Positions 11,640-60,670 of a stretch of DNA of 64,000 bases are shown piece after piece. The stretch is from the NCBI GenBank assembly GCA_029204225.1, contig CM055102.1, forward strand, positions 24,771,390-24,835,389, written 5' to 3'. The stretch is from Diphasiastrum complanatum. Taxonomy: Eukaryota; Streptophyta; Lycopodiopsida; Lycopodiales; Lycopodiaceae. The notes under the pieces were generated by a model. The model searched no databases. It was not told where the DNA came from and worked only from the letters and a program-made list of their open reading frames with translations. The translations under genes were made by a program, and so were the position numbers. Position 1 is the first letter of the stretch. The number at the start of each line of letters is the position of its first letter.

Positions 11640-13085
11640 CACTGTCACTAATAAATACTCGTACACTTGTTACATTTCACAGTCATGATACTGCCACATG
11701 CAGTTGACAATGACTAAATACAGGGCGTGGCAACTACAATCCAATAGTGTCCATAGTTTGTCCTTGCGCCTTGTTCATTGTCATGGCGAAAGCCGCTCTA
11801 ATAGGGAATTGTACTCTCTGCAATTCAAATGACAAATCCGAATTGCTCGGCACTAAAGGGATCCGTGGAATGAGAACTCTACTCCCTATATTCTTCCCAG
11901 TCACTATCTCCGCCTCTATGACCTATATGCCCAATCTACGAATGATAAGTCTCGTACCATTGCACAATCCCTTGTGTGCGATGCTATCGACCGCAACAAC
12001 ATCACTATCATCCCAACCTTCAACACCAACTTATGTGGAGGGCATCCACTCGGTTGCAAGTTGTTCAAAAACTCTATTGGGTACACATCAGAGTCATCAT
12101 GCTCAACCACGCTATTAGCACTATAAGACGTGCAAGCATCACCAGGAAGTGGCTCAACAACTTTCAAATTGATCTCATCCACATTTTTGTTCAACGGGGT
12201 CAATATTGCACGGCTTCTTAAAAAATCATCATCCATGTCATGGTGTGCAATATCGAGAAAAGTGAATGAAATTAATTTACACATTGCGCATCCTTAGACA
12301 TATACACTCTACCAAAGAAATCAAATTCAACCCACATTGCATGACTGTTGGCTCACTACCATCTCCAATACTCAGCAAATACTCTGCGGACCGCAACTAC
12401 TCGTTCCTATTGGCTCCCTCCACACCCATAATGCTCATGTTCGTTGACAGATTGTGCACCTCCATATACTTTCACAAACGCAAACTCTTCAGTGAAGTGC
12501 TGACAATCTGTGCACGACTGCCTTGTCATACCACTGGGAGCACCTGACGGAAATCACCACAAAAAATGATCCAAATGGAGTATCAATACCTAATGTGTCA
12601 TGTAGAAACCGATCCACACACTCGATGGTATACTTATGTACCATGGGAGCCTCGTCCCAAATAATGAGTCGACATGCCATCAAAAGCTTACCTAACGGAG
12701 ACTATTTCAAGATGTTGCATGTTGAGATTTTGTTCAATTCTATCGAAGGAATCCTAAATCTAGAGTGTGCGGTCCTACTCCCAATGCAGCATTCCTCGAC
12801 GATGCAATTGCTAGTGCTATCCAACCTTGTGCACGCACATATGACAACATGACACTATAGAGAAACGTCTTACCCATACCACTCGGAACATCTACAAAGA
12901 ATGGTCAAAAATCACATGTTGAGCCACATTCAATCTCTCGATGTCAGCCTCTACCTTTGAAAGAGTCTCATCGAGAAATATCTCTTCACGAAATAGTGGA
13001 GAAAACTTAACATCGCTATCGGAAAGTGTGACTCCAAAATTTGTCAACGACTTTCTCGATGCCTGCATGTGCGTCTCCACGTTAG
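11640..13085 (-). pseudogene. Helitron-type PIF1 helicase C-terminal region, decayed
   Basis: Read right to left on the minus strand it shows ordered PIF1/Helitron helicase motifs. They are a Walker A-like PSGMGKTFLY (about 12860-12895; the usual G-x-x-G-x-GKT has one changed position), Walker B LIIWDEAPM (about 12650-12675), AILTPLNKNVDEIN with YPIEFLNNLQPSG (about 12000-12200), and the late motifs RAAFAMTMNKAQGQT and FSHCQLHVA (about 11690-11800). Several frameshifts and stops are present. The Rep (HUH) nuclease and Helitron termini were not found. The right side is cut by the Copia LTR at 13093. In a live element this would unwind DNA during rolling-circle transposition. Confidence 0.85.
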
Positions 13086-14725: not shown

Positions 14726-16233
14726 ATGGATTCTCAAAGTAAAGCTGGTCTTATCGCAGACTAGCTGAATGGATCCAATTATCATTTGTAGAAATTTAAG
14801 ATGAAGACCTTGCTAATCGCCAGCAAATTATTGGATGTTGTTACAGGTACAGAAGTAAATCCTAAAGATGATGACTCAAAGTGAAAATCGATGGACGGTA
14901 AAGCTTTCGCGTTTATTATCCTCAATATATCAGATACACAGATTGGACACATAGCTGAAGCTACAACTTCAAAAGATGTTTGGGACATCTTGAACTCACT
15001 ATATGAAATGAGGGATGTAACTACGAAGTTACATCTACGAAGAGAATTCTTCACATTCAAAATGTCTACTGGTGATTCTCTTCATAGTCACATTAACTAG
15101 TCTAAGAATCTCTTGCAACAGATGGCCGTGTTGGATCAGTCATAGACGATCAAGATGCAATTATGACATTGCTTTCAAGCTTGCCCTCTACATATGAGAA
15201 CTGGGTGATGATCATATCGACATACTCAGATTTACTCTTACTAGAGTTATCACTATGTTGATGCAAGAAGACAATAGAAGAAGTCAAGACACTTCGTCTA
15301 CTTCCTCCTCTCAGGCTCTATATGTCAACAAAGGCTCTAAGCGACAGAAGTAGAAAAGCTCCAAGAAGGCTGCAACGAATCAAAAATAGACTCAAAGTCA
15401 AGCACAATCATCAAATCCACAATCAAAGAAGAAGATGTTTTGTAGGTATTGCAAGCACAATAACCATGAGATCAAGGATTGTCGAATTCTCCAAGCAAAG
15501 AATGCAGCCAAGCAACCTGATCAACAAGCAAACACAGTTTCATCATCTCCCCAGGTCGAAGTGGACGAAGGCGCATTCATGGTCAAAGATCAAAGTGCAT
15601 TTTTCTATGATTCATGGTTTCTGGATTTTGGAGCAACTCAACACATGAGCAATCAACATGAGATCTTTTACTCCTACATGCCTTACAACACGAACAAATT
15701 TGTTCATCTTGCTGACAATAGTACTCACACGATTGAAGGTGAAGGTACTGTAAGATTGCGATTTGAGCATGATCAATTCAAATCACTATCAAAGGTCTTA
15801 TATGTTTCTAAACTCTCTACAAATCTGTTATCAGTAAGTAGAATTACATATTTAGGTCATAAGGTAGAATTTGAATATGATCAATGCAAAATTATTGATA
15901 GGAGTAATAAGATCCTTGCACTCGGCAAGAGGCAGGGTTACTTATATAGATTTGCACATTGCTATTCTGAGTCTAGTCAAGCTTTGAAAACCTTTGTTCT
16001 AGTCAATAAAGCATTACTATCGCATCATCGCTTAGGACACTTGAATTACGCATCTGTTTTAAACATGTCTAGACAATCCATGGTTCTTGATCTCGACTAT
16101 CCTTCTGGTAAGGTCGATCTCCCTGTGTGTCATAGCTGCATCTTTGGAAAGCAGACTAGGATTTCTTTTAGATCAAACCATAGGCATGCAGCAAAAGATC
16201 TGTCAGATGTTGTTCATACAGATATATGTGGAA
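14726..16233 (+). pseudogene. Copia gag-protease-pre-integrase, disrupted
   Basis: Gag starts at the ATG at 14726, but in-frame stops follow almost at once (14763 and later). A Gag core slice is open at 14891-15100 (TSKDVWDILNSLYEMRDVTTK). A second open stretch, 15435-16233, holds the knuckle CRYCKHNNHEIKDC, the protease site WFLDFGATQHM (the catalytic D-S-G has become D-F-G) and the pre-integrase block (SHHRLGHLNYASV, then CHSCIFGKQTRISF). It ends at HTDICG, where the Gypsy element cuts it. The changed protease site and the stops make it dead as written. Confidence 0.9.
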
Positions 16234-17324
16234 TGTTACATACCTATGTAATTAGCAGTACTTCAGACCCCTCATAGTCCATTTAGTGTTGGGGGCTATA
16301 TGGCAAGGTACCCTTAGGATTAAGGGTATGTGCCCTTGGATAAGGACAGACAAGTGACTATACCTTAGTTGGAGGTATGGGGTCACGTGACCCTTGGATA
16401 AGGGGTACCCTTACTATTAAGGGTAGGTGCCTTAGATTAAGGTACTAGTGTCCTTGATTAAGGGCAGGTAGGTGTCTATGCCTTGGATGGAGGTATGGAA
16501 CCTAGTGAGGTGTTAGAAAGTCATTGGATGACTATTTCTCTAAACCTTGGGCCTCAACCTTGAACCATATCACTTTATTGGTCTAGGACCAAAGTATACT
16601 TGCACAACTTGGGCAATGGGACCTAGTAGGAGGTGCCCTTTTAAAGTGTCCATTGAGTTCCCAACTCCCACAGGAAAGGCATTCAAAGAGTCATAGGTTA
16701 TGGAAGGAGTCTCTTGACATTCCATAAGCCTATGGAGGCTCTTGGAGGTTCTCTAACTCCCCTAGGCTTCTCTCTCTCTCTCATTGGATGAGCATGGAAC
16801 TCCATAGTGCATTGGAGGGGTCCATGGGCCATCTATATGAGGGTAGTAGGGCGCCCATTGTGGGGGGGGGGGGGGGGGGAGATCTCTCTTGTTTGCTTGG
16901 CTTATGCTCTAGTGTTGCTACTAGTGTGTAGAGTGCTTTCTTGTGGTAGTATGCTTGAGGTTTGGATCTTGCTTATGGTATGGGACATAAGTAGGGTTTG
17001 GATCTTGAGTATGCTATGGAGTGTTGTGGTATGCTTGTGATTTGTTTATGGTTAGCAAGGGGGTGCTAGATAGGTCTTGCTTGGAGCCTGGATCTAGCTA
17101 TGGTTGGGTGGTGATTACTTGAGGCCAGCTTGTTATCTATCTTTGTGTTTAAAGAGTAGGGACACAGGTGGAGGAGAGATCCTTGGAGGCTTGCAGATCC
17201 TTACTTGCAGGTGGAGGCATCCTAGTTTGGAGTTGGGAAGCATCTTGAGGCTTGCAGGTTGCTTGGAGGACATTTGGAGGCTCTACCTTGGATTTGGAAG
17301 ACTTCCTCACCTCTATTTGTAAAA
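16234..17324 (+). repeat. 5' LTR of Gypsy chromovirus
   Basis: It begins TGTTACATACC and ends TTTGTAAAA, so the terminal dinucleotides are TG...AA rather than TG...CA. The front half is rich in short hairpins of the form CCCTT...AAGGG. It contains an 18-base G run (16862-16879) against 12 bases in the 3' copy. Confidence 0.88.
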
Positions 17325-17325
17325 G

Positions 17326-17337
17326 TGGTATCAGAGC
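17326..17337 (+). other. Gypsy primer-binding site (TGGTATCAGAGC)
   Basis: It lies one base beyond the LTR end and has the tRNA-Met type also used by the Copia element here. Confidence 0.9.
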
Positions 17338-18175
17338 TAGACAAATGATGGTAACCTTTCTAACCTTCTTCAAGTTCTATTAAGATCACCAACTAATTTT
17401 TTTTTTTTGGGAAAGATTATAGGCTTTTCTAGTTGTAGGAAGCTTGTAGTTGAAGTACCCAATGAATCTAGTTCTCTTTGGAAGAGAATAGTGATGCTTA
17501 TAGAATTGTTTAGGGGCTGATTTTTGATAATGTTAGAGAAGTTTTAAAGTGGGCTTTGGGTTTTTAAAAGTTTTGAAAAAAGATTTGTGGGATAGGTAGA
17601 GGAAGTCTTCCTCTACATACACAAAATTTTTTTGGCAAAAAGATTGATGTGTAACTTTGTGCATAAAACAAGTTCTGAAATTTTGTTTTTTGTCATTTTG
17701 AAGTTCTGATTTTCAGACCTGTAAATCTGAAAATCAGATTTGAAAATTGAAGTTTTCATAAAGCTTCATTAGTTATCCATTTCTAGACACTAGTTTCTTG
17801 GTTTTGGAAATCTAGAATAGTGAGAAATGTGAGAATTTTGGTTGCTTTTGAAATGACAAATAGAATTGGAATGGGAATGGAATGGGAACTTTATGTAAAC
17901 ATTAGCTTGGAATAGTTGATTGAAGTTTACATAAAGATTTGGTTTTCATTTTTGCTTTTGATTAAGGTAAATGTAGCTTCTTGTTGTTTTTCTCTTAAGC
18001 TTGGATGAAGTTTGCAAATAGTAGGCTTGGATTGAGCTTACAAACAATAAGATTGAATGATTAGAAGTAAATACTTTTTATTTGCATTGGATGTAACAAT
18101 TGAAGCATTTCTATCATTCTAATTTGAGCACTTGTTGTTGTATTTGCATAATAGGAAAACACACAAGCAACCCCA
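17338..18175 (+). other. Gypsy untranslated leader
   Basis: About 840 bases separate the PBS and the gag ATG. No long frame is present. Confidence 0.7.
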
Positions 18176-21100
18176 ATGGATCAAACCAATGAAAACCCAA
18201 CATTTGATCTATCAAACCCATCCAATGTGGCACAAGCTCTTGAACTATTATACCAACAAATTCAAGCCACTAATAAACAACTTCTTGAAACTAATCAAAG
18301 AAACCAAGACTTAGAGTCTAGGTTAGCCAATCAGAAGAAACATGTAGTTCCACCTCCTGTAAAAGTGTTTAAGGGGGAGAAGAAGGATAGGAACTTACAA
18401 GTGGTAAGTTCTTGGCTGAATGTTTGGAGCAAATACTTTGCCATGAATAAGTTCCCTGAATCTGAGAAGTTATCCACTATCACTATGTTCCTTGAAGGAA
18501 GAGCCTTAGTTTGGTGGGATGACTTAGTTGCAAAGGGCAATCAACCTTGTACATGGGATGAATTTTGCAAGCTTTTTAGGGATTATTTTCTACCACTTTT
18601 AGATGACTATGAACACTTCCAAAAGTTTAGTCATCTAACCATGAATAAAGGTTTGGAATAGTTTATTCAAGATTTTCATGAGTACCTGAATCCACTTTAT
18701 AGTGATATTCCGCCTAAGGTACAAATATTAATGTTTATTGATGGGTTACCAAAAGATTATGAAGTGGATGTTCGTAGGAACCATCCAAAAACCATAGAAG
18801 ATGCTATTAGGGCTGCAAAATACTTTGATGGCACACCTAAGCCACCTAGGGGTCAACAGCCTAATGAGCAGAAAAAAGGTTTTCAAATTAAGAGGAAGGA
18901 TAGGGAAGTTGTTAATGAAACACATCCCAATTCCAACAATCCTAAGAAAATAAAAAAAAACTTTAAAAAACATCATGGTGGCAATGATAAAGCTGAAGCT
19001 CGTAAGAAGAACCTGTGCTTCAAGTGCAATGGCGAGGGTCACCTTGCACGTGATTGCGTCAAAAAACAAGCTTCAACCTCAGGTAATCTATCTCGAAGTA
19101 ATGAGATGGATGTTTGTTTCCTTAGTTCTTTAGTTTTTGGTCCTAATGACCTTATTTGCATTAAAGGTAAAGTTAATGATCAAGTTGTTAATGTTCTTTT
19201 TGACACGGGATCCACTCATAACTTTATTAATGTAAATTTGGTGCAGACGCTAAATCTTCCTACCAAAAAAAGTGAAAAAAAATACCGTGTGACAATGGCA
19301 TTGGGAAGTAATTCCGATTTGATGGATTTTATTGTTCCTGATGTAGAATTGCACATTCAGGATTACTCTGAAAAACTAGAATTCCATGTTGTTCAATTAG
19401 CTAATGTAGATATTGTTCTTGGGCAACAATGGCATTTTGATAAGAACAAATCATTGAGAATTGATTTTGTTGAAAAATCTTTATCTTTTATGCATGAGAA
19501 TTCTTTAATTAAGATCAAGGCTAGTTTAAGTGTTGACACTAAAAATGTTAACCCTTATTCTAAACATGAACTTAATTCTATTATGAAGAATTCTGATTTT
19601 AAAGTTTATTTATGTTTTCATAATAATATCATTTGCTCCAATGATGAAGAACTTAACATAAATGCCATGAATATACCCAGTGAGAACACTTCAGAATTTG
19701 AAGCCTATAATGAACTTAGGCAGGAATTCAATGATGTTTTTTTAGACCTTCCTATAGGTTTACCACCAGAAAGGACAGTTGATCATAAAATTGACCTAAT
19801 ACCTGGAGCAATTCCAATTGCACAGCGTCCTTATAGGATGAGTGCATCGGAAGAGGCTGAGGTAAATAGGCAATTACATGATTACCTGAAAAAGGGGAGG
19901 GTACAACCTAGTAAGTCTCCTTGGGCATGACCAGTGGTTCTGGTGGCCAAGAAGGATGGGACTATAAGGTTTTGCGTTGACTATAAGAAATTGAACAAGG
20001 TAACTGTTAAAAATAGATATCCACTGTCGCGGATGGATGATCTAATAGACTATCTTGGTGGTGCTGGGTACTTTACCAAGATAAATTTAAGATCGGGCTA
20101 CCATCAGATACGCATTAAGGCAGAAGATATACCAAAAACCGGGTTTCGAACTCGCTTCGGTCACTACGAATTTTTGGTGTTGCCTTTTGGTTTGACCAAT
20201 GCACCGGCAACTTTCCAACAAATGATGAACGATTTGTTCAGGCCATATTTGGGAAGATTCGTAGTGGTATTCTTAGATGATATCCTAGTGTTCAGTAAGA
20301 CTTTGGCGGAACATAAAGAGCATCTTAGGATTGTCTTGGACATTCTAAGAAGGGAAAAGCTCTTTGCCAAGGAGTCTAAGTGTGACTTTTTTGCTAAGGA
20401 ATTGTCCTACTTGGGACATAAGATTTCTGAACAGGGGGTGGAGATTGAGGCTGATCGTATCCAGAGGGTTATTGATTGGCCTATTCTCACCACAGTTCGG
20501 GAAATCAAGTCTTTTTTGGAGTTTGTGGGATTTTTTCGTCGGCATATTCCCCAATTTGCTCGATTGGCATTTCCCCTTACCCAGGCCTTGAAAGGCTATA
20601 AGAAGCTAAGCCGGAGGGCTAAGAGTCCACTAGTGGTGTGGACGGAGGATATGAATAATTGTTTTGAGTTGCTTAAGAAAACTGTCACTTCGGCACCAAT
20701 ACTAATCATTGGCGATCCTAATAAGACTTTTGTGGTTAGGACCGATGCCAGTGATTATGGTATTGGAGCTGTTTTGATGCAGGATGGACATCCTGTGGCT
20801 TATGAAAGCAAGAAACTCAATCCTGCTCAGTCTAGGTATTGTACCTATGAGAAGGAACTGTTTGCAATTGTTCATTCCTTGAAAATTTGGCGACATTATT
20901 TGTATGGAGCCAAATTTGAAGTTTTGATGGATCATCAGACTCTTCGATATATCTGTGATGCTACAGATTTAAAGGGGAGGCAAGCTAGATGGGCTGTGTT
21001 GATGCAAATCTTTGACTCTTCTATACGTTATTGTAAAGGAAGTCAAAATACTCTAGCGGATGCTTTGAGTCGGTTACCGGTTATTAATCAGTTGTGCTTT

Positions 21101-22348
21101 ACTGTTATAGAACCGGAGTTGTTTCAATCTTTTCAAGGACTATATGAGTCCGATCCTTTTTTTGAAAAGTATTGGCAACAAGTACTTTTGGGGGTCGATT
21201 CAGGGCTGCAAGATTTCTCAAATCAGGGAAAGACTGAAACGGATTGCCTAATTCGAAACGGGATTTTGTTTCGTAAAGGAAAGGTGTGTGTACCGGAGAA
21301 TGACACTGTAAGGGCCCAAATCTTGCATGAGTGTCATGATAGTCCATGCGCAGGACATCTGGGTATACAAAGAACACTTGACTTAGTTCGAAGGCAATTT
21401 TGGTGGCCTAAGATGAAAAGTCAGGTAGAGGTCTATGTACTTAAATGTACTAAGTGCCAGTTAAATAAAACAGAGAGGCTAAAAGCTAGTGGCCTATTAC
21501 ATCCTTTAGATATTCCTACCGGAAAGTGCGAAAGTATATCTATGGATTTTGTGGTCGGGCTTCCACATACAGGGAAGGGCCACGATTCGGTTTGGGTCAT
21601 TGTTGACAGACTTACGAAGTTTGCTCAATTTATCCCAACGAAAACTACTGTTAAAGCTTCAGAACTAGCTCAACTGTTTGTTGAGAAGCTTTTTCGACTA
21701 TACGGGCTGCCTCGCGATATTTTCAGTGACCGTGACCCAAAATTCATAGGGAATTTTTGGCAAGCAGTATTTGAAAAGTTGGAAACAACTTTAAGTTTAA
21801 GTTCTACATATCATCCGGAATCAGACGGTCAAACAAAAAGGGCCAATCAGACGATGGAGGATATGCTTCGAGCATATGTGGGCCATCGGCAGTCTGATTG
21901 GGAACATCACCTTCCACTGGTGGAATTTGCATATAACAGTGCAAAACATTCAGCAACCGGATTCAGCCCTTTCATGCTTATGTATGGTTTTCAACCTCGA
22001 TCACCAATTAGTGTTGGCATGAAAAACCTACGGGTGCAAGCTGCAGCTGATTTCCTTGTGGATATGCAAGAAATGTTACAGCTGGCTAAAGATAGCATAA
22101 GAAGTGCCCAGGACAGGGCAAGGCACTATGCTGATCTATCTCGGAAGCACAAGGTATTCATGGTCAACGATTGGGTGTTTTTGAGAGTCCCTAGTCACTC
22201 TAGGGGCTTGAAAACTATTAAGTGTGCAAAGTTGGCACCTAGGTATTGCGGTCCTTTTAAGGTTATCCAAGTGATAAACAAGGTCGCATACAAACTAGAA
22301 CTTTCAGCTAACGTTGGAATTCATCCTGTTTCCACGTTAGTGAGTTGA
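18176..22348 (+). pseudogene. Gypsy gag-pol polyprotein with two in-frame stops
   Basis: One frame runs from the ATG at 18176 to 22348 and is interrupted only by TAG at 18659 and TGA at 19928. In order: Gag core (FLEGRALVWWDDLVAKGN), CCHC knuckle [14 protein letters not shown] (19016-19057), aspartic protease [10 protein letters not shown] (DTGS at 19202), RT with the FLDD active site (20270-20281), RNase H (RTDASDYGIGAVL), integrase zinc finger (HECHDSPCAGH ... KCTKCQLNK), and the integrase core with its D...D...E residues (MDFVVGLP; FSDRDPKF; HPESDGQT). The TGA lies exactly where a Ser codon is usual between WA and P-V-V-L-V. A single-base loss near 22330 moves the tail into another frame. 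It therefore cannot make the full polyprotein. Confidence 0.93.
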
Positions 22349-22560
22349 AACCCTCGTTGGGGGTTGGGGAGACCCTGGTCCCTGTGGAAGATCTAGTGGA
22401 ACTTCTTCGTGATGAGTCCGTGAGTGGACCACCTGAACCCGAGGTAATTGTCAATAGCCGGCAGAGAACTCTACGGAGTAGAGTGCTTCGGGAATTTTTA
22501 GTCAGGTGGAGGGGCAAATCAGAAGAGGAGGATACCTGGGAAAAGGAGGCTGATCTCTAG
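22345..22560 (+). pseudogene. Chromodomain tail of the Gypsy integrase, out of frame
   Basis: The sequence reads SRVLREFLVRWRGKSEEEDT followed by a W, a chromodomain with the aromatic/hydrophobic cage pattern. The start at 22345 is only where the frame opens; in the parent element it continued from integrase. In the chromovirus clade such domains are thought to guide integration toward particular histone marks. Confidence 0.85.
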
Positions 22561-22603
22561 AAGAATTTTTCAAATTTTTTCTTACAAGGAAAAATTCAAG
22601 TTT

Positions 22604-22615
22604 AGGGGGAAGGAA
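22604..22615 (+). other. Gypsy polypurine tract
   Basis: AGGGGGAAGGAA directly precedes the 3' LTR; this is the expected primer for plus-strand DNA synthesis. Confidence 0.85.
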
Positions 22616-23698
22616 TGTTACATACCTATGTAACTAGCAGTACTTCAGACCCCTCATAGTCCATTTAGTGTTGGGGGCTATATGGCAAGGTACCCTTAGG
22701 ATTAAGGGTATGTGCCCTTGGATAAGGGCAGGCAAGTGACTATACCTTAGTTGGAGGTATGGGGTCACGTGACCCTTGGATAAGGGGTACCCTTACTATT
22801 AAGAGTAGGTGCCTTAGATTAAGGTACTAGTGTCCTTGATTAAGGGTAGGTAGGTGTCTATGCCTTGGATGGAGGTATGGAACCTAGTGAGGTGTTAGAA
22901 AGTCATTGGATGACTATTTCTCTAAACCTTGGGCCTCAACTTTGAACCATATCACTTTATTGGTCTAGGACCATAGTATACTTGCACAACTTGGGCAATG
23001 GGATCTAGTAGAAGGGCGCCCTTCTAAAGTGTCCATTGAGTTCCCAACTCCCACAAGAAAGGCATTCAAAAAGTCATAGGTTATGGAAGGAGTCTCTTGA
23101 CATTCCATAAGCCTATGGAGGCTCTTGGAGATTCTTTAACTCCCCTAGGCTTCTCTCTCTCTCATTGGATGAGCATGGAACTCCATAGTGCATTGGAGGG
23201 GTCCATGGGCCATCTATATGAGGGTAGTAGGGCGCCCATTGTGGGGGGGGGGGGAGATCTCTCTTGTTTGCTTGGCTTATGCTCTAGTTTGCTACTAGTG
23301 TGTAGAGTGCTTTCTTGTGGTAGTATGCTTGAGGTTTGGATCTTGCTTATGGTATGGGACATAAGTAGGGTTTGGATCTTGAGTATGCTATGGAGTGTTG
23401 TGGTATGCTTGTGATTTGTTTATGGTTAGCAAGGGGGTGCTAGATAGGTCTTGCTTGGAGCTTGGATCTAGCTATGGTTGGGTGGTGAATACTTGAGGCC
23501 AGCTTGTTATCTATCTTTGTGTTTAAAGAGTAGGGACACAGGTGGAGGAGAGATCCTTGGAGGCTTGCAGATCCTTACTTGCAGGTGGAGGCATCCTAGC
23601 TTGGAGTTGGGAAGCATCTTGAAGCTTGCAGGTTGCTTGGAGGACATTTGGAGGCTCTACCCTGGATTTGGAGGACTTTCTCACCTCTACTTGTAAAA
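22616..23698 (+). repeat. 3' LTR of Gypsy chromovirus
   Basis: It begins TGTTACATACC and ends CTTGTAAAA, followed by TGGACC of the host Copia integrase. It differs from the 5' LTR by few substitutions and by the length of the G run (23243-23254). Confidence 0.9.
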
Positions 23699-25661
23699 TG
23701 GACCTATGCAAACTCCTTCATTGCTAGATGCAAAGTATTTCATTATCTTTATTGATGCATTCTCCAGAAGAATAGATGTTTATTTCATTAAACAGAAATC
23801 AGAGGCTTTTATCAAATTCAGACAATTCAAAGAGCATGCTGAGAATCAAACTGGAAAACGAATCAAAGCACTTAGGTCAAATAACGGGGGAGAATACATC
23901 CCCAACAAATTCAAGGAGTATTGCCTTATCAACGACATTGAACAACAATATATTACCTTTTATTCGCCTCAGTCAAATGGTCTTGCTGAGAGAAAGAACA
24001 GAACCTTAGTTAAATCGGCGAAGTGCATGTTATCACATGCGACACTCTCGAATTGCTTTTAGGCTGAAGCTGTTTCAACAACAACCTATATCTAGAACAA
24101 ATGTCCTACTAAAGGCCTCTCAAACAAAACACCATTTAAAGTTTGGACAAATACCAAATCTCCTTTATCAAACCTACGAGTTTTTGGATGTATTTCTTTT
24201 GCACAGATTCCTCATGATCTCAGGAAGAAGTTCGACTTCTAGAGTATCAAATGTGTTTTCATCAGCTACACTACTTCAGATCAAGCCTACAAGTTGTTCG
24301 ATCCCATCGAGTCAAAGATATTCACTAGTCGGGATGTCATCTTCATCGAAGATCAGTTTCAAGACCTTAAAGGAAAAGTCAGTCCCCATGTAGCCGACCT
24401 ATCAGATTCTCCTGACTCATTGAACTTTCCACTTCCGCAGTTACTATTCCCATTGAATGTCCAAGCTCTTCTACTTTTGATGAACAACAAATCAACGATG
24501 AATTAGAAGATGATGATGTTGCAGATCAGCAACTACAGTATGATGGAAATAATCAGCTTCTTGTATTACGTAGAAGATCATCAAGGACTAGCAGACCACC
24601 TGAGAGGTATATTGATGAGTCTACAGCCTATCTTGTTTAGGAACCGACGTCTGTTGAAGAGGTACTCAGTCAGTCTGATTCAGATCTCTGGAAAGAAACT
24701 ATGGATAAAGAGTATTCATCTCTTATCAAGAACCAGACGATCGATCTAGGCAAAGCTCATTTTTGCCTTGGTATACAAATCCACAAAGACAAAAAGTAGA
24801 AGTTGGTCTACATTACACAACAAAGGTACATCTAGAACATTTTAGTTAGATATAATCTAATGAATTGCAAGTTAGCACTCTCACCAATGGAACCAGGTCT
24901 CAAATTTTCAAAGGACCAGTGTCCCCAAACAATTCATGAGAAGTAGCAGATGCATGAGTATTCTTACCATTCTATTATAGGATCTCTTATGTACGCCATG
25001 ATTTGTACCAGGCCAGACATAGCTTTTGCAGTTAGCTCTCTCAGCCAATTTATGACTAATCCTAGTGTAACACATTGGAAGGCTCTTATTAGAGTCATGA
25101 GATATCTTCGAGCTACTATGGACTTGTGCATTTGTTATGGAGCAGTCGGCAACGACAAACTCAATTTTCTCAGTGGTTACACATATGCAAGTTGGGCAAG
25201 AGATGTAGACACTCGTAAATCCACTTCTGGATTTACATTCTTCCTCAACAATGGTCCAGTTTCCTGGAACAATCGCGAGCAATCTTTAATAGCTCTATCT
25301 TCTACTGAATCAGAGTATATTGCAGCCTCTCAAGCTACAAATGAAGCGATTTGGTTGAGGAATTTACTCTCAGATATCGGTCTGAATCAATATGCTCAGA
25401 CGACATTATTTTGTGATAATTAAAGTGCCATTGCTTTATCAGCCAACCCCAGATTTCATTCTAGGAGTAAGCACATTGAACTGAAGTATCATTTCGTCAG
25501 AAGCAAAGTTCTCAATGAAGAGGTCAGATTGCAGTACTGCAGAACACAAGATATGACAGTAGATGCTTTTACCAAAGCATTAAGTTTGGAAGTACACAAA
25601 AGATTCTGTGTAGAACTAAGTTTGAAGGTCAAGGCATTCAAGGATTCAGATTAAGAGAGAG
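23699..25661 (+). pseudogene. Copia integrase-(RT deleted)-RNase H, second half of the split element
   Basis: The integrase core resumes (FIIFIDAFSRRIDVYFI; LRSNNGGEYI; YSPQSNGLAERKNRT) and is open to 24062. Then comes the integrase C-terminal/linker region in shifting frames (24063-24700). The RT start near 24690 (LWKETMDKEYSSLIKNQT) jumps to FCLGIQIHKDKK near 24760, so the RT palm with its Y-x-D-D box is missing. RNase H is open at 24950-25423 (SWARDVDTRKSTSGFTFFL; ALSSTESEYIAASQATNEAI), with a CAA-to-TAA-like stop after FCDN. The polypurine tract TTAAGAGAGAG precedes the LTR. Confidence 0.9.
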
Positions 25662-34331: not shown

Positions 34332-35821
34332 ATGATACAATGTCTACTTAATGTTGTATTAATAATATACTTTTAGTGATTTAAAGTCAATTTGACATTA
34401 TATTGATTTTATAATTACATACTTAGATAATCCAACAAGAGTGGTTGAACATTCAAGGTTCAATGGGCACCCATTTTTTTTTTCTTGAGATTATTTCTGA
34501 TTTGTGTGGTTGAGTGGAGACAAAATTTATGCATCAAGGAGAGAAAAGGAAGCCTTGACTTGCAAGCTAGTTATTAGAGGGGCATCCCAAGTTTAATTAG
34601 TAGTTTTGGTGAGTTGGGGGCGAAAGGTTGCAAGAAAGAGCTCTTCTAGTGCATAATATTAATTTTGAGATTTACTTGATGTCTTAGTGAGTTATTAGTT
34701 TTGCCCAATTTGGGCAAAGCTTTTAAAGTTTCACTTATTTATTGAGCAAGTTGAATCTCTTTGAGAATAAAGCTTTCAAATGACTCTAAGAGTGGTTTCA
34801 GGCTTGAGTACTTGGCAGTGGCACATGAGGTGGCTGCGCCCTTGCCAGCATGTAAAGGCATATCAAGCCCATTTTGGACATGGGAACATTTATGGGCATG
34901 TTGAGTTGTCGAGACAACTTAAGAAAAATGAATCAATAGCGTGCATGGCGTGGATTTGAACTAGCCAATCAACTCAGAGCACCCTAAGCCCGTTCAATTG
35001 TGTTAACTTGGTTGGGAAGGATCGAAAGATGGGCGGGGCCGCATGAGAAATGGGAGTCTATGGTAGTGAGGTATCACCCTTTGATGGAATTTTGAGGTGA
35101 AGGGCCAGTTTGACAAGGCTTTGTCGTGAGGATGAGGGAAATTGTGAAACCTCACGGGCACGGCACTTTGAAGTTGAATAAGGAATTTTGACGTAGTCAA
35201 AACTAACGTGGTCTCACTTAGACCCAGCAATTGCAAGCTGCCATGCCCTTCACGTGCCCATCCACCTCTCACAGAGAAAGGCAACAGTTTGATTACATCT
35301 CACTTGAAGGGCATATCTGAAAGCTACTCTTCAAGTTGAGAAGACAAATGCATGAGTCAAACTTCAACAGAAAATCATAAACAACCCATTGTGAGTGAGT
35401 ATTGCATGAAAAATGCTTTTAAGGGTTTCACATATCAGTTCAAGGGCAATGTATGAGCTAGCATATCAAGTTGAATGGTATTGAAATATCATGCCCTTCA
35501 TTTTAAAAGGAAGCCCCTCAAATTCCAAGCCTATCTTGAAGGGTGATCTTTTTCTTTCTCTATGCTAGAAGCATTTGGGAAGGTCTGTGAGGCTATGGCA
35601 CTGATGTGCTGTCTTTGACAAAGGAAACACAAGTATTGTCAATTTCTCCAGATGTCCATCCCAGTCAGTCAAAGATCAGCACAAACCCATTTTCTTTCTT
35701 CAAAGTTCAGAGCTGCAGCTTGCATGAAGCTTCAAGATCCAAATGGGTGACTGAGGAATAGTAGTATTTGGTGTTCTTCTGCTGCCAAAGTCAACAATTG
35801 CTAAGTCTTTCCCACAAGATT
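34332..35821. other. Intergenic stretch upstream of the peptide-precursor gene
   Basis: No gene domain is visible. It holds T runs near 34476 and GC-richer DNA at 34990-35290. The last few hundred bases are the likely distal promoter of the gene at 36149. Confidence 0.5.
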
Positions 35822-36067
35822 TTTCTTTCAATCAAAAGGCTTATATACAGCAGCAGTTGTAACTTGTCTCCCATCACCACTTCAGCTGTATAATCCACTC
35901 TTCCATCACTGTCTCTCATCCTCCCTCTATCTGTATCTTCATTCAAGCTTTTCCTTCCAAGCAAAAAGGTTAACTACAGCACTAGTTGCAAAGTTGTCAC
36001 CCATCGCTACTTCAATTGTAGCCTCACTTTCATCATATCTTCTGCTCTGTCTGTATCTTTATTCTTG
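35822..36067 (+). promoter_or_regulatory. Tandemly duplicated core promoter/5' leader, about 125 bp x 2
   Basis: Copy 1 (35822-35947) and copy 2 (about 35948-36067) align throughout. Both have TTTCTTTCAA/TTTCCTTCCA, CAGCAGCAGTTG/CAGCACTAGTTG, TCTCCCATCACCACTTCA/TCACCCATCGCTACTTCA and CTGTATCTTCATTC/CTGTATCTTTATTC. Copy 1 contains TTATATACAG at 35841, a good TATA box; copy 2 has TTAACTACAG at that place. Copy 2 therefore probably acts as transcribed leader of the gene at 36149, with transcription starting after 35870. Confidence 0.65.
35842..35847 (+). promoter_or_regulatory. Candidate TATA box (TATATA)
   Basis: It lies about 300 bases upstream of the ATG at 36149, in the first copy of the duplicated leader. 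It is the only TATA-like site I found in that leader. Confidence 0.5.
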
Positions 36068-36148
36068 ATCCATCGTAGCTTTCAGCTACTGCATTCTTTC
36101 AGGTGTTTCTGTTTTTGGTGAGTTTTGTGTGGGATATTGAGAGGCGTG

Positions 36149-38653
36149 ATGGTATACATCAGTCGAAGTTTCTTATGTGGGCTTCTGTTCTGCTGCCTGC
36201 TCTCCTTCCCCAATGTGCAGAACGCCAGCGGTCGAGTTCTTGAGATAGGAAATCACTTGCAATTCCGTGAAGTCACCACACCTGGGGAGCAGAAGATTGA
36301 AGCTCTGAAGGGAGTTGTTTCTGTTGCTAGCTGGCTCAAGGTTCACACAGGAAGCCCTCTCATAAGGGGAGGTACCTTTCTCAAGAACAATCTCTGGAAG
36401 AAAAGCAAATCTCATGAACCCAGTTTTGGTGTTGGCTCTTTGATTTTGTCTGGCGATCATGCTGGTTTTGATAAGCTTGATAAAGGCACGCCAACTCCTG
36501 GTTCAGGTCCCAGTCCAGGAGGCAACCAATCGCCACTTGTTAGCCAACACAAAGAAAGGGTTGTGGTGCATGGAGATGAAAATCTTGCAACCAACTCTTT
36601 ACCAAAAGGCTGGAATGTACCATCCGGGCCAAGTAGGTTGCACCAAGAGAAAGCTGACAAGATTACAAGAAGCGTGGACAACATTTTGAAAGAAGAGGCC
36701 TCAGAATCAGAAAAACAAGCTCTTCAATCCGCGTCAGAGTCTGGGAAGGATGAGGGTGATGCAGAGAAGCTGGTTTTCAATGCTCGGCTTCTGCCCGAAG
36801 GTATCACCCCTCCTTCAGGACCAAACCCAGGCCACAATGATGCAATCCTGGCAGCTCTGGACCGAAAAAATAAGCTGACTGTCAACTCTCTTCCCAAAGG
36901 CCCGACAACGCCTCCAGGGCCAAATCCTGGGCACAACGCTGTGATTGCAAGTGAGGAACCTGAGAAATTGCACTTGGAGCTTCTGCCCCAAGGACCCAAC
37001 CCTCCTTCAGGACCAAACCCAGGCCACAATGGTGCAATCCTGGCAGCTCTGGAGGGAAATAAGCTGGCTGTCAACTCTCTTCCCAAAAGCCCAACAACGC
37101 CTTCAGGGCCAAATCCTGTGCACAACGCTGTGATTAGAAGTGAGAAAACTGAGAAATTGCAATTGGAGCTTCTGCCCGCAGGCGTAAACCCTCCTTCAGG
37201 ACCAAACCCAGGCCACAATGGTGCAATCCTGGCAGCTCTGGAGGGAAATAAGCTGGCTGTCAACTCTCTTCCCAAAGGCCCAACAACGCCTCCAGGGCCA
37301 AATCCTGTGCACAACGCTGTGATTAAAAGTGAGAAAACTGAGAAATTGCAATTGGAGCTTCTGCCCACAGGCGTAAACCCTCCTTCAGGACCAAACCCAG
37401 GCCACAATGGTGCAATCCTGGCAGCTCTGGAGGGAAATAAGCTGGCTGCCAACTCTCTTCCCGAAGGCCCAACAACGCCTCCAGGGCCAAATCCTGTGCA
37501 CAACGCTGTGATTAAAAGACACAAAACTGAGAAATTGCAATTGGAGCTTCTGCCCACAGGCGTAAACCCTTCTCCAGGACCAAACCCAGGCCACAATGGT
37601 GCAATCCTGGCAGATCTGGAGGGAAATAAGCTGGCTGTCAACTCTCTTCCCAAAGGACCAATAACGTCTTCAGGGCCAAATCCTGTGCACAAAGCTGTGA
37701 TTAAAAGTGAGAAAACTGAGAAATTGCAATTGGAGATTCTGCCCAAAGGCGTAAACCCTCCTTCAGGACCAAACCCAGGCCACAATGGTGCAATCCTGGC
37801 AGCTCTGGAGGGCAATAAGCTGGCTGTCAACTTTCTTCCCAAAGGCCCAACAACGCCTTTAGGGCCAAATCCTGTGCACAACGCTGTGGCCAAAACTGAG
37901 AAAACTGAGAAATTGCAATTGGAGCTTCTGCCCACAGGCGTAAACCCTCCTTCAGGACCAAACCCAGTCCACAATGCTGCAAACCTGGCAGCTCTGGAGG
38001 GAAAAGATAATTTGGCTGTGCCTTCAGGGCCAAATCATAGGCACGATGTTGTGATCGAAAGTGAGAACTCTAAGAAACTGCGTTTGGAGCGCCTGCAAAA
38101 AGGACCCGTCCCCCCATCCTCCCCAAACCCCATTCACGATCTGATCCTCAACAGCAAGCTGGTAGAGAAAGAATTGCCTGCTGCCAATCAAGTTGAGGAT
38201 GTTGAAATAGTCCACGATAGCTCCTCAACCCTAAAGACGTTGCCAGGATCCAATCCTAGTGTTGCTCCTGAAGGCTTTGCTGTCAAGCATTCGCTTGAGA
38301 TCTCGGAAGCCCACTTTGCTGCAGAATCTGCTAAGCCCAACTCTCTAGAAGATAAGGCCCTTGTTTTGAATAAGCTCCCAAAAAGTCCAGGACAAACTTA
38401 CAAGTCTTCACCAAATCTGATCCACTACTCTATCCACACCACTGCCTCACAGAAGAAGCCTGTAAGTGACGATCACAAAGAGATCTGCGAGCTCCATTTT
38501 GACTCTCGACAAAACTTCAGTGAGCTTGTTGGTTGTCAGCAAGACATCATGCCAATGGCTCCCGCCACTCTCTTCAGACCGGCAGTCATGCAGCAGGGTA
38601 TGCACAATTTTTTTGCTGCTGGTATTGCAAGGGATACTCTTCCCAGATCATAA
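36149..38653 (+). CDS. Secreted multi-peptide precursor with tandem CLE/IDA-like motifs
   Basis: The 834-residue product starts at the ATG at 36149. The frame is open further up, but only via TTG/GTG codons, and this ATG gives a proper signal peptide: residues 1 to about 27, hydrophobic core FLCGLLFCCLLSF, then NASG. Residues 108-127 hold GSGPSPGGN. Residues 149-166 hold LPKGWNVPSGPSRLHQ. Residues 213-609 are 14 alternating motifs of two types: A, LLPxGVNPPSGPNPGHN, and B, NSLPKGPTTPPGPNPVHN. Weaker copies follow near residues 647-664 (VPPSSPNPIHD) and 741-760. The core resembles CLE peptides (CLV3 RTVPSGPDPLHH) and IDA peptides (PIPPSAPSKRHN), including the LPKG lead-in of IDA. In those families the peptide is cut from a secreted precursor, Pro-hydroxylated, and sensed by LRR receptor kinases. 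Release of many peptides from this one is inference. No transmembrane segment follows the signal peptide. Stop is TAA at 38651. Confidence 0.9.
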   Translation: MVYISRSFLCGLLFCCLLSFPNVQNASGRVLEIGNHLQFREVTTPGEQKIEALKGVVSVASWLKVHTGSPLIRGGTFLKNNLWKKSKSHEPSFGVGSLILSGDHAGFDKLDKGTPTPGSGPSPGGNQSPLVSQHKERVVVHGDENLATNSLPKGWNVPSGPSRLHQEKADKITRSVDNILKEEASESEKQALQSASESGKDEGDAEKLVFNARLLPEGITPPSGPNPGHNDAILAALDRKNKLTVNSLPKGPTTPPGPNPGHNAVIASEEPEKLHLELLPQGPNPPSGPNPGHNGAILAALEGNKLAVNSLPKSPTTPSGPNPVHNAVIRSEKTEKLQLELLPAGVNPPSGPNPGHNGAILAALEGNKLAVNSLPKGPTTPPGPNPVHNAVIKSEKTEKLQLELLPTGVNPPSGPNPGHNGAILAALEGNKLAANSLPEGPTTPPGPNPVHNAVIKRHKTEKLQLELLPTGVNPSPGPNPGHNGAILADLEGNKLAVNSLPKGPITSSGPNPVHKAVIKSEKTEKLQLEILPKGVNPPSGPNPGHNGAILAALEGNKLAVNFLPKGPTTPLGPNPVHNAVAKTEKTEKLQLELLPTGVNPPSGPNPVHNAANLAALEGKDNLAVPSGPNHRHDVVIESENSKKLRLERLQKGPVPPSSPNPIHDLILNSKLVEKELPAANQVEDVEIVHDSSSTLKTLPGSNPSVAPEGFAVKHSLEISEAHFAAESAKPNSLEDKALVLNKLPKSPGQTYKSSPNLIHYSIHTTASQKKPVSDDHKEICELHFDSRQNFSELVGCQQDIMPMAPATLFRPAVMQQGMHNFFAAGIARDTLPRS
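36470..36529 (+). other. SGPSPGGN motif in the precursor (PIP/IDA-like)
   Basis: It encodes DKLDKGTPTPGSGPSPGGNQ. The SGPSP-G pattern resembles the PIP/PIPL core (SGPSPxGxGH) more than CLE, and it stands apart from the array. Confidence 0.5.
36593..36646 (+). other. Most CLE-like motif in the precursor
   Basis: It encodes NSLPKGWNVPSGPSRLHQ. VPSGPSRLHQ matches the CLE pattern VPSGPxxLHx at the fixed positions (P4, G6, P7, L10 and H11 of a 12-residue peptide), and LPKG precedes it as in the array units. Confidence 0.65.
36785..38047 (+). repeat. Coding tandem array, exact 189-bp dimer units
   Basis: A-type motifs lie at 36785, 36977, 37166, 37355, 37544, 37733 and 37922 (each 54 bp). B-type motifs lie at 36884, 37073, 37262, 37451, 37640 and 37829, with a shortened one at 38009-38047. 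After the first step of 192 bp every A-to-A step is exactly 189 bp (63 codons: A motif 18, spacer 14, B motif 18, spacer 13). Spacers are GAILAALEGNKLAV and AVIKSEKTEKLQL. Near-identical DNA between units indicates recent unequal exchange or conversion. Confidence 0.95.
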
Positions 38654-39037: not shown

Positions 39038-39043
39038 AATAAA
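39038..39043 (+). terminator. Candidate poly(A) signal AATAAA
   Basis: It is the first perfect AATAAA noted downstream of the peptide-precursor stop, about 385 bases after it. An earlier variant site is possible. Confidence 0.4.
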
Positions 39044-43144: not shown

Positions 43145-44347
43145 TTACTTTGGGGATCTTGTGAGGAAATCGATAAAATGTCCTTCAACAATATCCACAT
43201 GAGATGTACATTCCTCTTCATCCACGATAAGATCTACTGATGTCATGCAAAAGTCCTCAACCAATGAAAAATCCATGACATTATTCCCATCCTTATCCTG
43301 CCTTCTCCTTCTGGGCCACAAATTGGACAAGCAAGATATCCCTTCACTCTACATCCGGCAAGCAAGCCATATGCAGGAAAATCATGGACTGTCCACAGCA
43401 AAATACCTCTTAGAGAAAAATGTCTCCCTTCATGCATCGGTCGTGTAACATCGTAAGTAGGTATTCCATTCCACAATTCTAGCAACTCTTCCACAAGGAC
43501 TTTTAGATAAACATCTATCTTATCTTCTTTTACTTGGTTCGGACCAGGAATAAGGAATGACATCATAACAAAGAGTTTTTTTGTAGCTAGCCAAGGTGGC
43601 AAATTATAATTCACTAAAAGAACAGGCCAAGTACTCCATCTGCTACTCAAATCTTGAAAGGGATTCACACCATCTATAGCAAGTCCAAGTCGAACATTTC
43701 GAGGTTCTTTAGCAAACGGCTGCCAAGTTGAATCCACATGCTTCCAAGCAAGCGAGTCTGTCTTAGCATGTTGTCATGGCTTCTACCTTGTGTATGCCAT
43801 AACATTAGATTTGCAATAGTTGGACAGCTACAAAATAACAAATAAAAAAGACATCAATATTAATATATGTGTGTGTGCATATATATATAATATGCACATA
43901 TACGTGTGTGTTTGCTATAAATATATATTTAAAAATGGAACATAAATTTGATGTTCAGATGTAATGATGAAACTCAAAAATTTTATCTTGCATTGATTAA
44001 AGAAAACTAGAGCACCTGTACATTCGAAGAAGACGTGGTATCAATGGATAATGTCTTAATACTTTTTGTGATATTTTTCTCTTTTCTTCCTTCCATCGAC
44101 TAGCCGCGCAAATAGGACATGAATCCAATATAGAATGCTCCCCACGATATAATATGCAGTCATTAACACATGCATGAATGCTATTATAGTGCAACCCAAG
44201 ATCTTTGATCATTTTCTTTGCTTGGTATGTTAATGGTGGAAGCTCGTTTTCTAATGACAAAATGTCTTTCTTCAAAAGATGTAGCAACTCATCCATGCTT
44301 GCTTGTGACCAACCATGTACCACTTTAAGATTGTAAAATAACAGCAT
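43145..44347 (-). pseudogene. CACTA TNP2-type transposase, truncated
   Basis: The N-terminal block at 44347-43997 reads VVHGWSQASMDELLHLL, KKMIKDLGLHYNSIHACVND, CPICAASRW and YPLIPRL. A gap of about 170 bp with TTTTGTAG on its right follows (a possible intron, though the donor GTGCTC is poor). Then 43803-43245 reads DSLAWKHVDSTWQPF, AIDGVNPFQDLSSRWSTWPV, LVNYNLPPWL, LLWTVHDFPAYGLLAG and LACPICG. These are the ordered blocks of the Transposase_21 (TNP2) family, which cuts and joins the element ends. The C-terminal part beyond CPICG is missing, and a frameshift lies between the two blocks. Confidence 0.88.
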
Positions 44348-53827: not shown

Positions 53828-54671
53828 TGTAGTTTATTGAATTTGGAGGAAAAGGAAAAAATAAGTTGCCAGTATGATACCTATGAGTTTCATAGGTTCA
53901 TGTTGCCGCAACTTCTTGGGAGCGATTGGGCAATAGATGGTCTTGTGCAAATATGCATGGAGAGAACTACATATACACTGGTTGTTTATATTTGGTTATA
54001 GTCATGTATGTAAATCTTAAATTTCATTATATACTTATATAAGAGAATTACATTTTTGTAGATTATGTTTAGAGTAGATCAATGAAAAAGATCAAATATG
54101 CATCGACAATCCACTATTTCACCAAAGAGCTACGGAAAAAAAAAGATGATTTGACAAATCGGAAATCAATGGAGAAACTTTTTATTCATAAGAGCTGGAC
54201 AAATATCAGTCACATTTTCATTCCCGTTGTTTGCCCAGTATGTATCAAATTAACTATTTTAGAGCCATGTTTGTCTTCTTGATTCATGCTCTTACTACAA
54301 TCAACCTTTACTTACACATGCTTTTGATACAGTAATCATTGGAGCTTGGTAATTATTGAGACGATTTCTTTCATAGTGGTCCACATGGATTCAAAACGTG
54401 GACTGCATTTCACAATCAAAAGGTTTTGTTCTCGTATTTGTTTTTTTTTTTTCATTTTTAATATTCTAAAATAAACAAATATACGTTCCCAATGGACATG
54501 TTGGTACATTATGTAAATGTAATTTCGTTTACTTGAATTGCAGGCCAATAGAAAATACACTATGGCACAGTGCTCATCCAAAGAAAGAAAAACTGACCAA
54601 GCTGACTTGGAAGCAACCTCAAGTAATTTTATTTTTTGTACTTTACAGAATGATCCTTTCATTTGCATATA

Positions 54672-55477
54672 TGTTAGCAACTGTGCTAACACAGAAAATA
54701 AAAAAATAATAAAACTCCATGGCATGTGTTTTGTAAGACCACGTATGAATATCTGTCAATAAACTTCAAGCCATGGCATGTGTTTTGTAAGTCCATGAGT
54801 AGAAGCTTAAATAATAATAAAATAGCTTAAACTTAGATTTAGAACTTAGACTTAGGAAACTAAAGATTAGAAGTATTTTATCTTAAGTTGTCCTAAGTTA
54901 AGAAAATTGAATTTCTAAATTCTAAGTTAGAAGTTCTAGAAAGGCTAAGAACATATTAGTCCCATAAGTTAGTAGACACTTATGGAAGACCCTCCTTACC
55001 ATAAAAGGAGAGGTATTTGCATTGTAAATAACACTTTTGAGATTAAGCTATCTTGCTCTCTACTTTGGAGAATTATCATTCTATTTCATTTGTGTTCCCC
55101 TTGGAAAGGTGCATAGCTTGAGGGAAGATGCTCGAGCCTCCTCTTCTCCTTTTCATCGGTTTTATTGTGGCATGTTCATTATTGCTTATTTGTTTAGTAT
55201 TAGCCGCAATCTCATTTTATTACCCTTCGGGTGTTAATCTAGGATTAGTCTAGTCACCTTGCTAGTTGGGTAACCCTTAGCAAGGATTTTTATTGTTGTT
55301 ACTAATTAGTTTATTTTTGTTTCGGGCACTAGTTGGGTAAGCCTTAGTGCTCTCATTCCTGTCCATATTCCCGTTGAAGCTTATTGTAGAAACTTAAAAA
55401 GTGGACGAATCTCTACATCCATATACTACACCCATAAGTAGATCTAGCCACCGCACTCACTAGAAATACTTCCAACA
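54672..55477 (+). repeat. 5' LTR of gag-protease element
   Basis: 806 bp, TGTTAGC...CCAACA. It contains an internal direct repeat: CCATGGCATGTGTTTTGTAA occurs twice, about 60 bases apart (near 54718 and 54771). Confidence 0.93.
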
Positions 55478-59850: not shown

Positions 59851-59862
59851 GGAGGGGGATAA

Positions 59863-60670
59863 TGTTAGCAACTGTGCTAACACAGAGAAAATAAAAAAAT
59901 ATAAAACTCCGTGGCATGTGTTTTGTAAGACCACGTATGAGTATCTGTCAATAAACTTCAAGCCATGGCATGTGTTTCATAAGTCCATGAGTAGAAGCTT
60001 AAATAATAATAAAATAACTTAAACTTAGATTTAGAACTTAGACTTAGGAAATTTAAGATTAGAAATATTTTATCTTAAGTTGTCCTAAGTTAAGAAAATT
60101 GAAGTTCTAAATCCTAAGTTAGAAGTTCTAGAAAGGCTAGGAACAGATTAGTCCCATAAGTTAGTAGACACTTATCGAAGACCCTCCTTACCATAAAAGG
60201 AGAGGTATTTGCATTGTAAATAACACTTTTGAGATTAAGCTATCTTGCTCTCTATTTTGGGGAATTATCATTCTATTTCATTTGTGTTCCCCTTGGAAAG
60301 ATGCATAGCTTGAGGGAAGGTGCTCGGGCCTCCTTTGCCTCCTTTTCATCGGTTTTATTGTGGCATGTTCATTATTGCTTATTTGTTTAGTATTAGCCGC
60401 AATCTCATTTTATTACCCTTCGGGTGTTAATCTAGGATTAGTCTAGTCACCTTGCTAATTGGGTAAGCCTTAGCAAAGATTTTTATTGTTGTTACTAATT
60501 AGTTTATTTCTGTTTCGGGCGCTAGTTGGGTAAGCCTTAGTGCTCTCATTCCTGTCCATATTCTCGTTGAAGCTTATTGTAGAAACTTAAAAAGTGGATG
60601 AATCTCTACATCCCTATACTACACCCGTAAGTAGATCTAGCCACCGCACTCACTAGAAATACTTCCAACA
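59863..60670 (+). repeat. 3' LTR of gag-protease element
   Basis: 808 bp, TGTTAGC...CCAACA, followed by the ATATA duplication. It is preceded by GGAGGGGGATAA. Confidence 0.93.

Follow-up and report, generated by a model that had tools for sequence, protein, structure and literature searches.

Does a single plant gene encode a long series of peptide hormones within one secreted precursor and, if so, to which hormone family would they belong? These questions are raised by an open reading frame (ORF) of Diphasiastrum complanatum, located in a 64,000-nucleotide stretch (the window) of contig CM055102.1 (assembly GCA_029204225.1, positions 24,771,390 to 24,835,389, forward strand). An original prediction, made from the DNA letters alone, had described the ORF as a secreted precursor of tandem CLE/IDA-like peptides. 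Judged from its sequence, it is on balance probably a protein-coding plant gene whose secreted product, a poly-peptide precursor in the IDA/CLE superfamily, would give two alternating ligands.

The putative precursor and its 18 peptide-like units

The ORF and the parts of its product are as follows.

36149..38653, forward strand: single ORF of the putative multi-peptide precursor, 834 amino acids, sole stop terminal
36149..36232, forward strand: signal-peptide-like N-terminus, residues 1–28 (hydropathy)
36233..36235, forward strand: Arg29, immediately after the signal-like stretch (translation)
36476..36526, forward strand: unit u01, LDKGTPTPGSGPSPGGN, with an IDL-type SGPS core (unit comparison)
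36599..36646, forward strand: unit u02, LPKGWNVPSGPSRLHQ, with an IDL-type lead-in and SGPS (unit comparison)
36791..37975, forward strand: regular array u03–u15, alternating types A (7) and B (6) (unit list, Tandem Repeats Finder)
38012..38047, forward strand: unit u16, LAVPSGPNHRHD, lead-in lost (unit comparison)
38093..38140, forward strand: unit u17, LQKGPVPPSSPNPIHD (unit comparison)
38360..38428, forward strand: unit u18, LVLNKLPKSPGQTYKSSPNLIHY, with a degenerate core and an IDL6/7-like lead-in, outside the common register (unit comparison)

The 834-residue frame was found exactly where the original prediction had placed it. It contains 18 peptide-like units, namely 13 regular ones (u03–u15) and five divergent ones (u01, u02, u16, u17 and u18); the 14–18 motifs that had been proposed are thus reached when the divergent units are counted, but not by the regular units alone. 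Tandem Repeats Finder reported a repeat at 36787–38004 with a period of 189 bp, 6.4 copies and 93% matches. This 189-bp repeat is a dimer of a type A unit, LPxG-VNPPSGPNPGHN (u03, u05 and so on to u15), and a type B unit, LPKG-PTTPPGPNPVHN (u04 to u14). The distance from an A unit to the following B unit is 32 residues (33 in the first A-B pair), and that from a B unit to the next A unit is 31. On the opposite strand of the array lies an antisense frame of 436 codons (36724–38034, reverse strand), which is probably a shadow of the in-frame repeat.

Within the array, GPNP is kept in all 13 units and the HN ending in 12; no unit outside it ends in HN, so that the overall count is 12/18. In the 12-residue peptide numbering, position 7 is Pro in every one of the 18 units and position 5 is Ser in 13; Asn occupies position 8 in 16 units, the other two having Ser there (the SGPS of u01 and u02 only). 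Position 3 is more variable (Pro in nine units, Thr in six, Val in two and Tyr in one).

The predicted signal peptide agrees with a strongly hydrophobic N-terminus, whose hydropathy peak of 2.88 at residues 8–18 (FLCGLLFCCLL) far exceeds the next-highest peak of the protein (1.45). By eye, signal cleavage is possible at ASG|R, immediately before Arg29; an Arg after the signal peptide has been described for IDL and PIP precursors (PMC4526919). Here and below, comparisons with published work rest on the available portions of the papers cited.

An IDA/IDL-type lead-in joined to a CLE-like tail

The units were compared with published peptides in two ways. The first comparison used three IDA/IDL sequences and nine of the 18 multi-motif CLE sequences printed in papers, with 500 shuffles and an uncorrected cut-off of p<0.05, the array copies not being independent of one another. 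By this test 17/18 units matched the lead-ins of IDA, IDL6 or IDL7 (u05 barely, at 0.0499), and none of the 18 matched the published CLE lead-ins, all of which came from multi-motif CLE proteins. The second, stricter comparison used five lead-ins and eight 12-mers from papers, scored against a background of 97,456 translated window residues outside the gene at a threshold of 1e-4. The IDL6 lead-in FGSLVLNALPKG (PMC5853212 Table 1, which gives the IDL6 and IDL7 sequences) reached the threshold in 10/18 units and exceeded every background stretch in nine; among the A units below threshold, four of the seven missed it by one point (21 vs 22) and u03 by more (11). The three CLE lead-ins reached it in none of the 18. 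The array units also share with IDL6 and IDL7 a distance of four residues between LPxG and the SGP-type triplet (PMC5853212 Table 1).

The 12-mers following the lead-in gave a different picture. The PVPP-type IDA-like peptide PVPPSGPSPCHN (PMC7552357) was matched at threshold by 17/18 units, 15 of them above all background, and rice CLE75 RLTPTGPNPVHN (PMC2254619) by 16/18, with 13 above all background. The corresponding numbers were 16 and 15 for CLE68, 17 and 12 for CLV3, 15 and 10 for TDIF, 15 and 11 for IDA, and 16 and 10 for IDL1. The two unit types divided cleanly: all seven A units scored higher with the PVPP-type peptide than with CLE75, and all six B units the reverse, at 43–54 against RLTPTGPNPVHN. 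Of the eight published 12-mers, PVPPSGPSPCHN was the top scorer for the seven A units and u17. Positions typical of CLE peptides were kept widely (Pro4 in 14/18, Gly6 in 16/18, Pro7 in 18/18, Pro9 in 15/18 and His11 in 17/18). These results bear out the proposed junction of an IDA-type lead-in with a CLE-like tail, the lead-in being IDA/IDL-like and the tail CLE-like in 17/18 units each.

As to family membership, the precursor has two traits that characterize IDA/IDL proteins: a signal-peptide-like N-terminus with the conserved Arg directly behind it (hydropathy peak at residues 8–18, Arg29) and the EPIP lead-in with correctly spaced LPKG (17/18 units, shuffle p<0.05). It lacks other IDA/IDL features: the S[GAV]PS core with Ser8 occurs as SGPS in 2/18 units, a basic residue at positions 9–10 before HN is limited to Arg9 of u02 and Arg10 of u16, with no Lys in any unit, and 834 residues with 18 units replace a short precursor with a single C-terminal motif. 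An Arg or His of the CLE type at position 1 of the 12-mer was present in none of the 18 units. Because defining features of both IDL and CLE are missing, we place the precursor in neither family; by its letters, the unit is a hybrid of an IDL6/7-like lead-in and a core unlike that of IDL6.

The C-terminal GxGH of PIP, PIPL and CEP peptides ends no unit in the list, as inspected by eye. A Pfam scan of the precursor returned no family at E<=10, and short pieces of IDA, IDL6 and CLE68 were likewise without a match at E<=1. Three PDB matches (E 1.2–1.4) were weak and look like chance. No Rfam model matched at gathering scores. Among viral and prokaryote contigs, 7 and 130 pattern matches, respectively, yielded no confirmed relative, as expected for a plant gene.

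Evidence for a protein-coding gene

At 843 codons, the stop-to-stop frame that holds the ORF exceeds all others in the window, the next being a Gypsy frame of 805 codons. The 834 codons of the ORF contain neither a frameshift nor an internal stop; the openness of the array is due in part to the 189-bp period being a multiple of three. The unique flanks of the array are also open, over 210 codons (chance P 7.7e-6) and 214 codons (4e-5). The GC content of the ORF is 0.50, compared with 0.38 for the window, and GC at first codon positions exceeds that at second positions in each of three ORF segments. The surroundings of the ORF offer the following signals.

35842..35847, forward strand: TATA-box-like TATATA, the sole TATA[AT]A match within 35500–36150
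35871..36148, forward strand: probable 5′ leader, free of ATG over 278 nt (sequence scan)
39038..39043, forward strand: AATAAA polyadenylation-like signal, 385 nt past the stop and the only one within 650 nt after it

Since the 278-nt leader contains no ATG, the inferred transcript would have its first ATG at position 36149; such a leader has a shuffle P of 0.03, and 20 of 1195 other stretches of the window are likewise free of ATG. A duplicated stretch of about 120–130 nt overlaps the probable leader (35815–35944 vs 35944–36064, about 72% identity, E 2e-13). No further copy of the gene was found within the 64-kb window.

Selection record of the units

We compared the two unit types as a record of an old duplication and the copies within each type as a record of recent change. 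The consensus cores of A and B differ at 7/27 nucleotides and 2/9 residues, for which neutral simulation gave a mean of 4.33 (P 0.027). The 16-residue motif gave P 0.046, and the seven-residue lead-in alone gave no signal (P 0.54). The pairwise ratio of replacement to silent substitution (dN/dS) between A and B was 0.05 when the core was compared and 0.18 over the motif; these values are only rough, since silent differences approach saturation, at 0.70 and 0.62 per site, respectively. The core is better preserved than the A/B spacer, with 7/27 as opposed to 31/45 nucleotides differing (Fisher p 0.0006); the spacer, aligned with one codon dropped, is itself near saturation and differs at 12/15 residues (P 0.13). 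The excess of silent differences between A and B suggests that the core was under constraint in the past.

A dN/dS near 1 in the motif, which the original prediction had named as a sign against itself, was therefore absent from the old A/B split (core 0.05, P 0.027) and present within types: 1.26 for A motifs and 1.50 for B motifs, within a range of 1.26–3.05 when all units are included, with 3 of 25 recent codon changes silent.

Points of weakness and alternative explanations

Several observations weigh against the reading as a working two-ligand precursor. Recent copies show 22 replacement and three silent codon changes, a count from which the first A unit, the first B unit and the final A unit's spacer are excluded, and the silent changes are below the neutral expectation (one-sided P 0.037). 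The 22:3 ratio means that the recent copies fit either relaxation or diversification, and the array may be relaxed. Divergent units compared with A or B gave values below 0.05 in only 4/10 comparisons (u01-A, u02-A, u17-A and u17-B), and these silent/replacement tests are biased because the units were chosen by amino-acid likeness. Unit u12 has lost Asn12 and ends in HK, and the cores of u11 and u14 are altered. On the side of family likeness, CLE scores exceeded those of IDA, IDL6 and IDL7 over the last nine residues in all units except u01, and over the whole 24-residue unit in 11/18 (IDL was higher in six, with one tie); the IDL6 12-mer fitted poorly (2/18 at threshold, 0/18 above background), and the lead-in of IDA itself reached the 1e-4 threshold in 5/18 units, with one above all background. 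The Tyr at P4 of the IDA cleavage site is found in 0/18 units, and most cores have Asn8-Pro9 where HAESA and HSL1 prefer Ser8 and Lys/Arg.

The alternative that survives best, although we consider it doubtful, is that a once-functional IDL/CLE-type precursor had its 189-bp dimer expanded neutrally as a coding minisatellite, leaving one or a few units active and the remainder drifting towards a pseudogene. The 22:3 ratio, in which purifying selection is not detected, speaks for this history, as do the missing lead-in of u16 and the changes in u11, u12 and u14. It is countered by the 834 codons that have stayed free of frameshifts and stops, by the open unique flanks, and by the retention across the array of GPNP without exception and of HN in all units but one.

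A repetitive cell-wall protein, structural and hydroxyproline-rich or of another kind, whose hormone likeness is incidental, the alternative that the original prediction had itself raised, would account for the Pro content of 12.1%, the tandem Pro-containing repeats and the signal-like N-terminus. Its composition argues otherwise and makes this identity improbable. The PAST and PVKCYT residue fractions are 32.9% and 31.4%, the usual cut-offs for wall proteins being 50% and 45%, respectively; SPPP and YxY motifs are both absent, and most units rise above all background in their match to the PVPP-type peptide (15/18) or CLE75 (13/18).

Least probable of all is a true multi-domain CLE precursor like rice CLE75 with an IDL-like lead-in gained by convergence, for although the GPNPVHN tail of u15 and four of the six B units is identical to that of CLE75 motif 1, the CLE75 motifs are spaced by 32–36 residues (PMC2254619), and the B 12-mer and nine-residue scores lean towards CLE, no unit has Arg/His1 or a CLE lead-in, only 2/18 have Val3, and changing Val3 to Pro weakens CLE9-BAM1 binding from 100 to 3000 nM (PMC8847575).

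Transposon neighbourhood

The prediction that the gene is intact in transposon-rich surroundings agrees with a Pfam scan of seven neighbouring frames, four of which gave transposon-type matches above the curated cut-off; an integrase fell just below it, and two frames were without a match. A Ty3-type long terminal repeat (LTR) retrotransposon occupies 16230–23701, with LTR-like direct repeats at 16230–17328 and 22612–23701 (96.9% identity) and gag and pol frames in its interior (Retrotrans_gag, RVT_1, RNase H and integrase). Long direct repeats also occur as a pair at 54667–55477 and 59859–60670 (95.8%); the frames between them are gag-like, as judged by eye, and the whole is probably another retroelement. 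The window also contains a CACTA-type transposase fragment (43243–43770, reverse strand; Pfam Transposase_21, E 7e-57) and a Pif1 2B-domain fragment (11916–12293, reverse strand; E 7.5e-9) that is probably derived from a Helitron. Together with the types of peptide, the Ty3-type, CACTA tnp2 and Pif1/Helitron-like sequences point to a plant origin.

Predicted processing and receptor recognition

Under the favoured reading of a secreted two-ligand precursor, the protein would enter the secretory pathway, and its prolines could be hydroxylated, Pro7 being available in 18/18 units. IDA is listed as a substrate cut at YLPK|GVPI by SBT4.12, SBT4.13 and SBT5.2, with P2-Pro and P4-Tyr weighing most (PMC13157962). 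P2-Pro is present in 14/18 units and P1′-Gly in 15/18 (u01 and u18 being out of register), and subtilases of this type may cleave each unit at LPx|G. IDA extended beyond its Asn is not bound by HAESA (PMC4848090), so that trimming after HN would be needed, and would expose a C-terminal Asn. Each precursor would then yield at most seven A peptides, [G]VNPPSGPNPGHN, and at most six B peptides, [G]PTTPPGPNPVHN.

Sensing would be by leucine-rich repeat receptor kinases of subfamily XI. HSL1 reads Ser5, Hyp7, Ser8 and the HN end, and BAM1 requires a CLE front (PMC8847575, PMC4848090). The residues at receptor-read positions make the A units an IDA front with a CLE back; A would more likely be sensed on the HAESA/HSL side; B could fall on either side. 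Given that Lys/Arg is lacking at positions 9–10, binding of the units on the HAESA side would be expected to be weak. As to origin, an ancient duplication of a monomer may have given rise to A and B while the core was under selection, and the dimer, amplified recently, may now serve dosage.

In a bolder form, which we regard as tentative and rather unlikely, the gene would supply two different hormones in a fixed alternating ratio: A, IDA-like at the front, and B, whose core is like that of CLE75. Subtilases that cut in the IDA manner would free both, recognition would be a hybrid between that of HAESA/HSL and that of CLE receptors, and the precursor would be larger than any other plant poly-hormone precursor in the literature searched.

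Relation to known precursors and implications

Like the Arabidopsis IDA, IDL6 and IDL7 proteins, the precursor has an Arg after the putative signal peptide and Pro7, and an HN end as in IDA; with IDL6/7 it shares an L-x-x-N-x-LPKG-like lead-in (B units, u02 and u18) and the four residues between LPKG and SGP. Unlike these single-unit proteins it has 18 units, mostly with Asn8 (16/18) and none with Lys at 9–10. The IDA searches in PMC4627355 were restricted to proteins of fewer than 120 residues, as opposed to 834 here. The PVPP-type IDA-like candidates PVPPSGPSPCHN share PPSGP-x-P-x-HN and Pro9 with our units, which differ in Asn8 and Gly/Val10; the portions of PMC7552357 available describe single motifs and not arrays. 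Rice CLE75 resembles the precursor in its single exon as well as in its regular motif spacing and the GPNPVHN of motif 1, but has 250 residues, six motifs and a KRLTP lead-in without LPKG (PMC2254619 Table 2). The wheat proteins TraesCS1D02G046900 and TraesCS1D02G047000 are likewise multi-unit and on the border between IDA and CLE, one predictor calling both IDA and CLE; they have seven and eight domains, and their last two residues (HN/H) are said to differ from CLE, the HN count here being 12/18 (PMC9532867). PIP/PIPL and CEP precursors, also secreted, carry two to five motifs (five in CEP9; two each in PIP2, PIP3 and PIPL1) and end in the GxGH that is absent here (PMC4526919).

Multiplicity as such is therefore established: two to six motifs per CLE precursor (PMC2254619), a wheat precursor with four CLE domains, and 59 multi-CLE genes in 27 species (Goad et al. 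2017, as cited by PMC9532867). In the open PMC literature, which does not cover the maximum reported by Goad et al. 2017, we found no precursor with at least 13 units or with this motif; no paper there contained the unit letters, and PSGPSPCHN variants occurred in PMC7552357 only. Thus the original description as an unusual poly-hormone gene stands for the number of units and not for the kind itself, six CLE motifs (PMC2254619) and seven to eight domains (PMC9532867) being in print. From sequence comparison, the poly-peptide layout appears to be known already at smaller scale, with the copy number and the IDA/CLE mixture being unusual.

Gene names with the prefix MA_ we take to be Norway spruce gene models, so that an IDA/CLE-transitional gene may exist in a conifer. 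PMC7552357 assigns the IDA-like candidate MA_9094901g0010 to Marchantia polymorpha, and P. abies is among the species with similar domains in PMC9532867.

A small number of positions, among them 3, 5, 8 and 9–10, allow receptors to discriminate IDA from CLE peptides (PMC8847575, PMC4848090). The precursor sets natural combinations of these receptor-read positions side by side, repeatedly, with an internal record of the residues that were kept. If its peptides are released, they would test how HAESA/HSL receptors and BAM-type receptors discriminate between ligands, whether repeat number is a route to hormone dose, and the shared ancestor of IDA and CLE proposed in PMC7552357.

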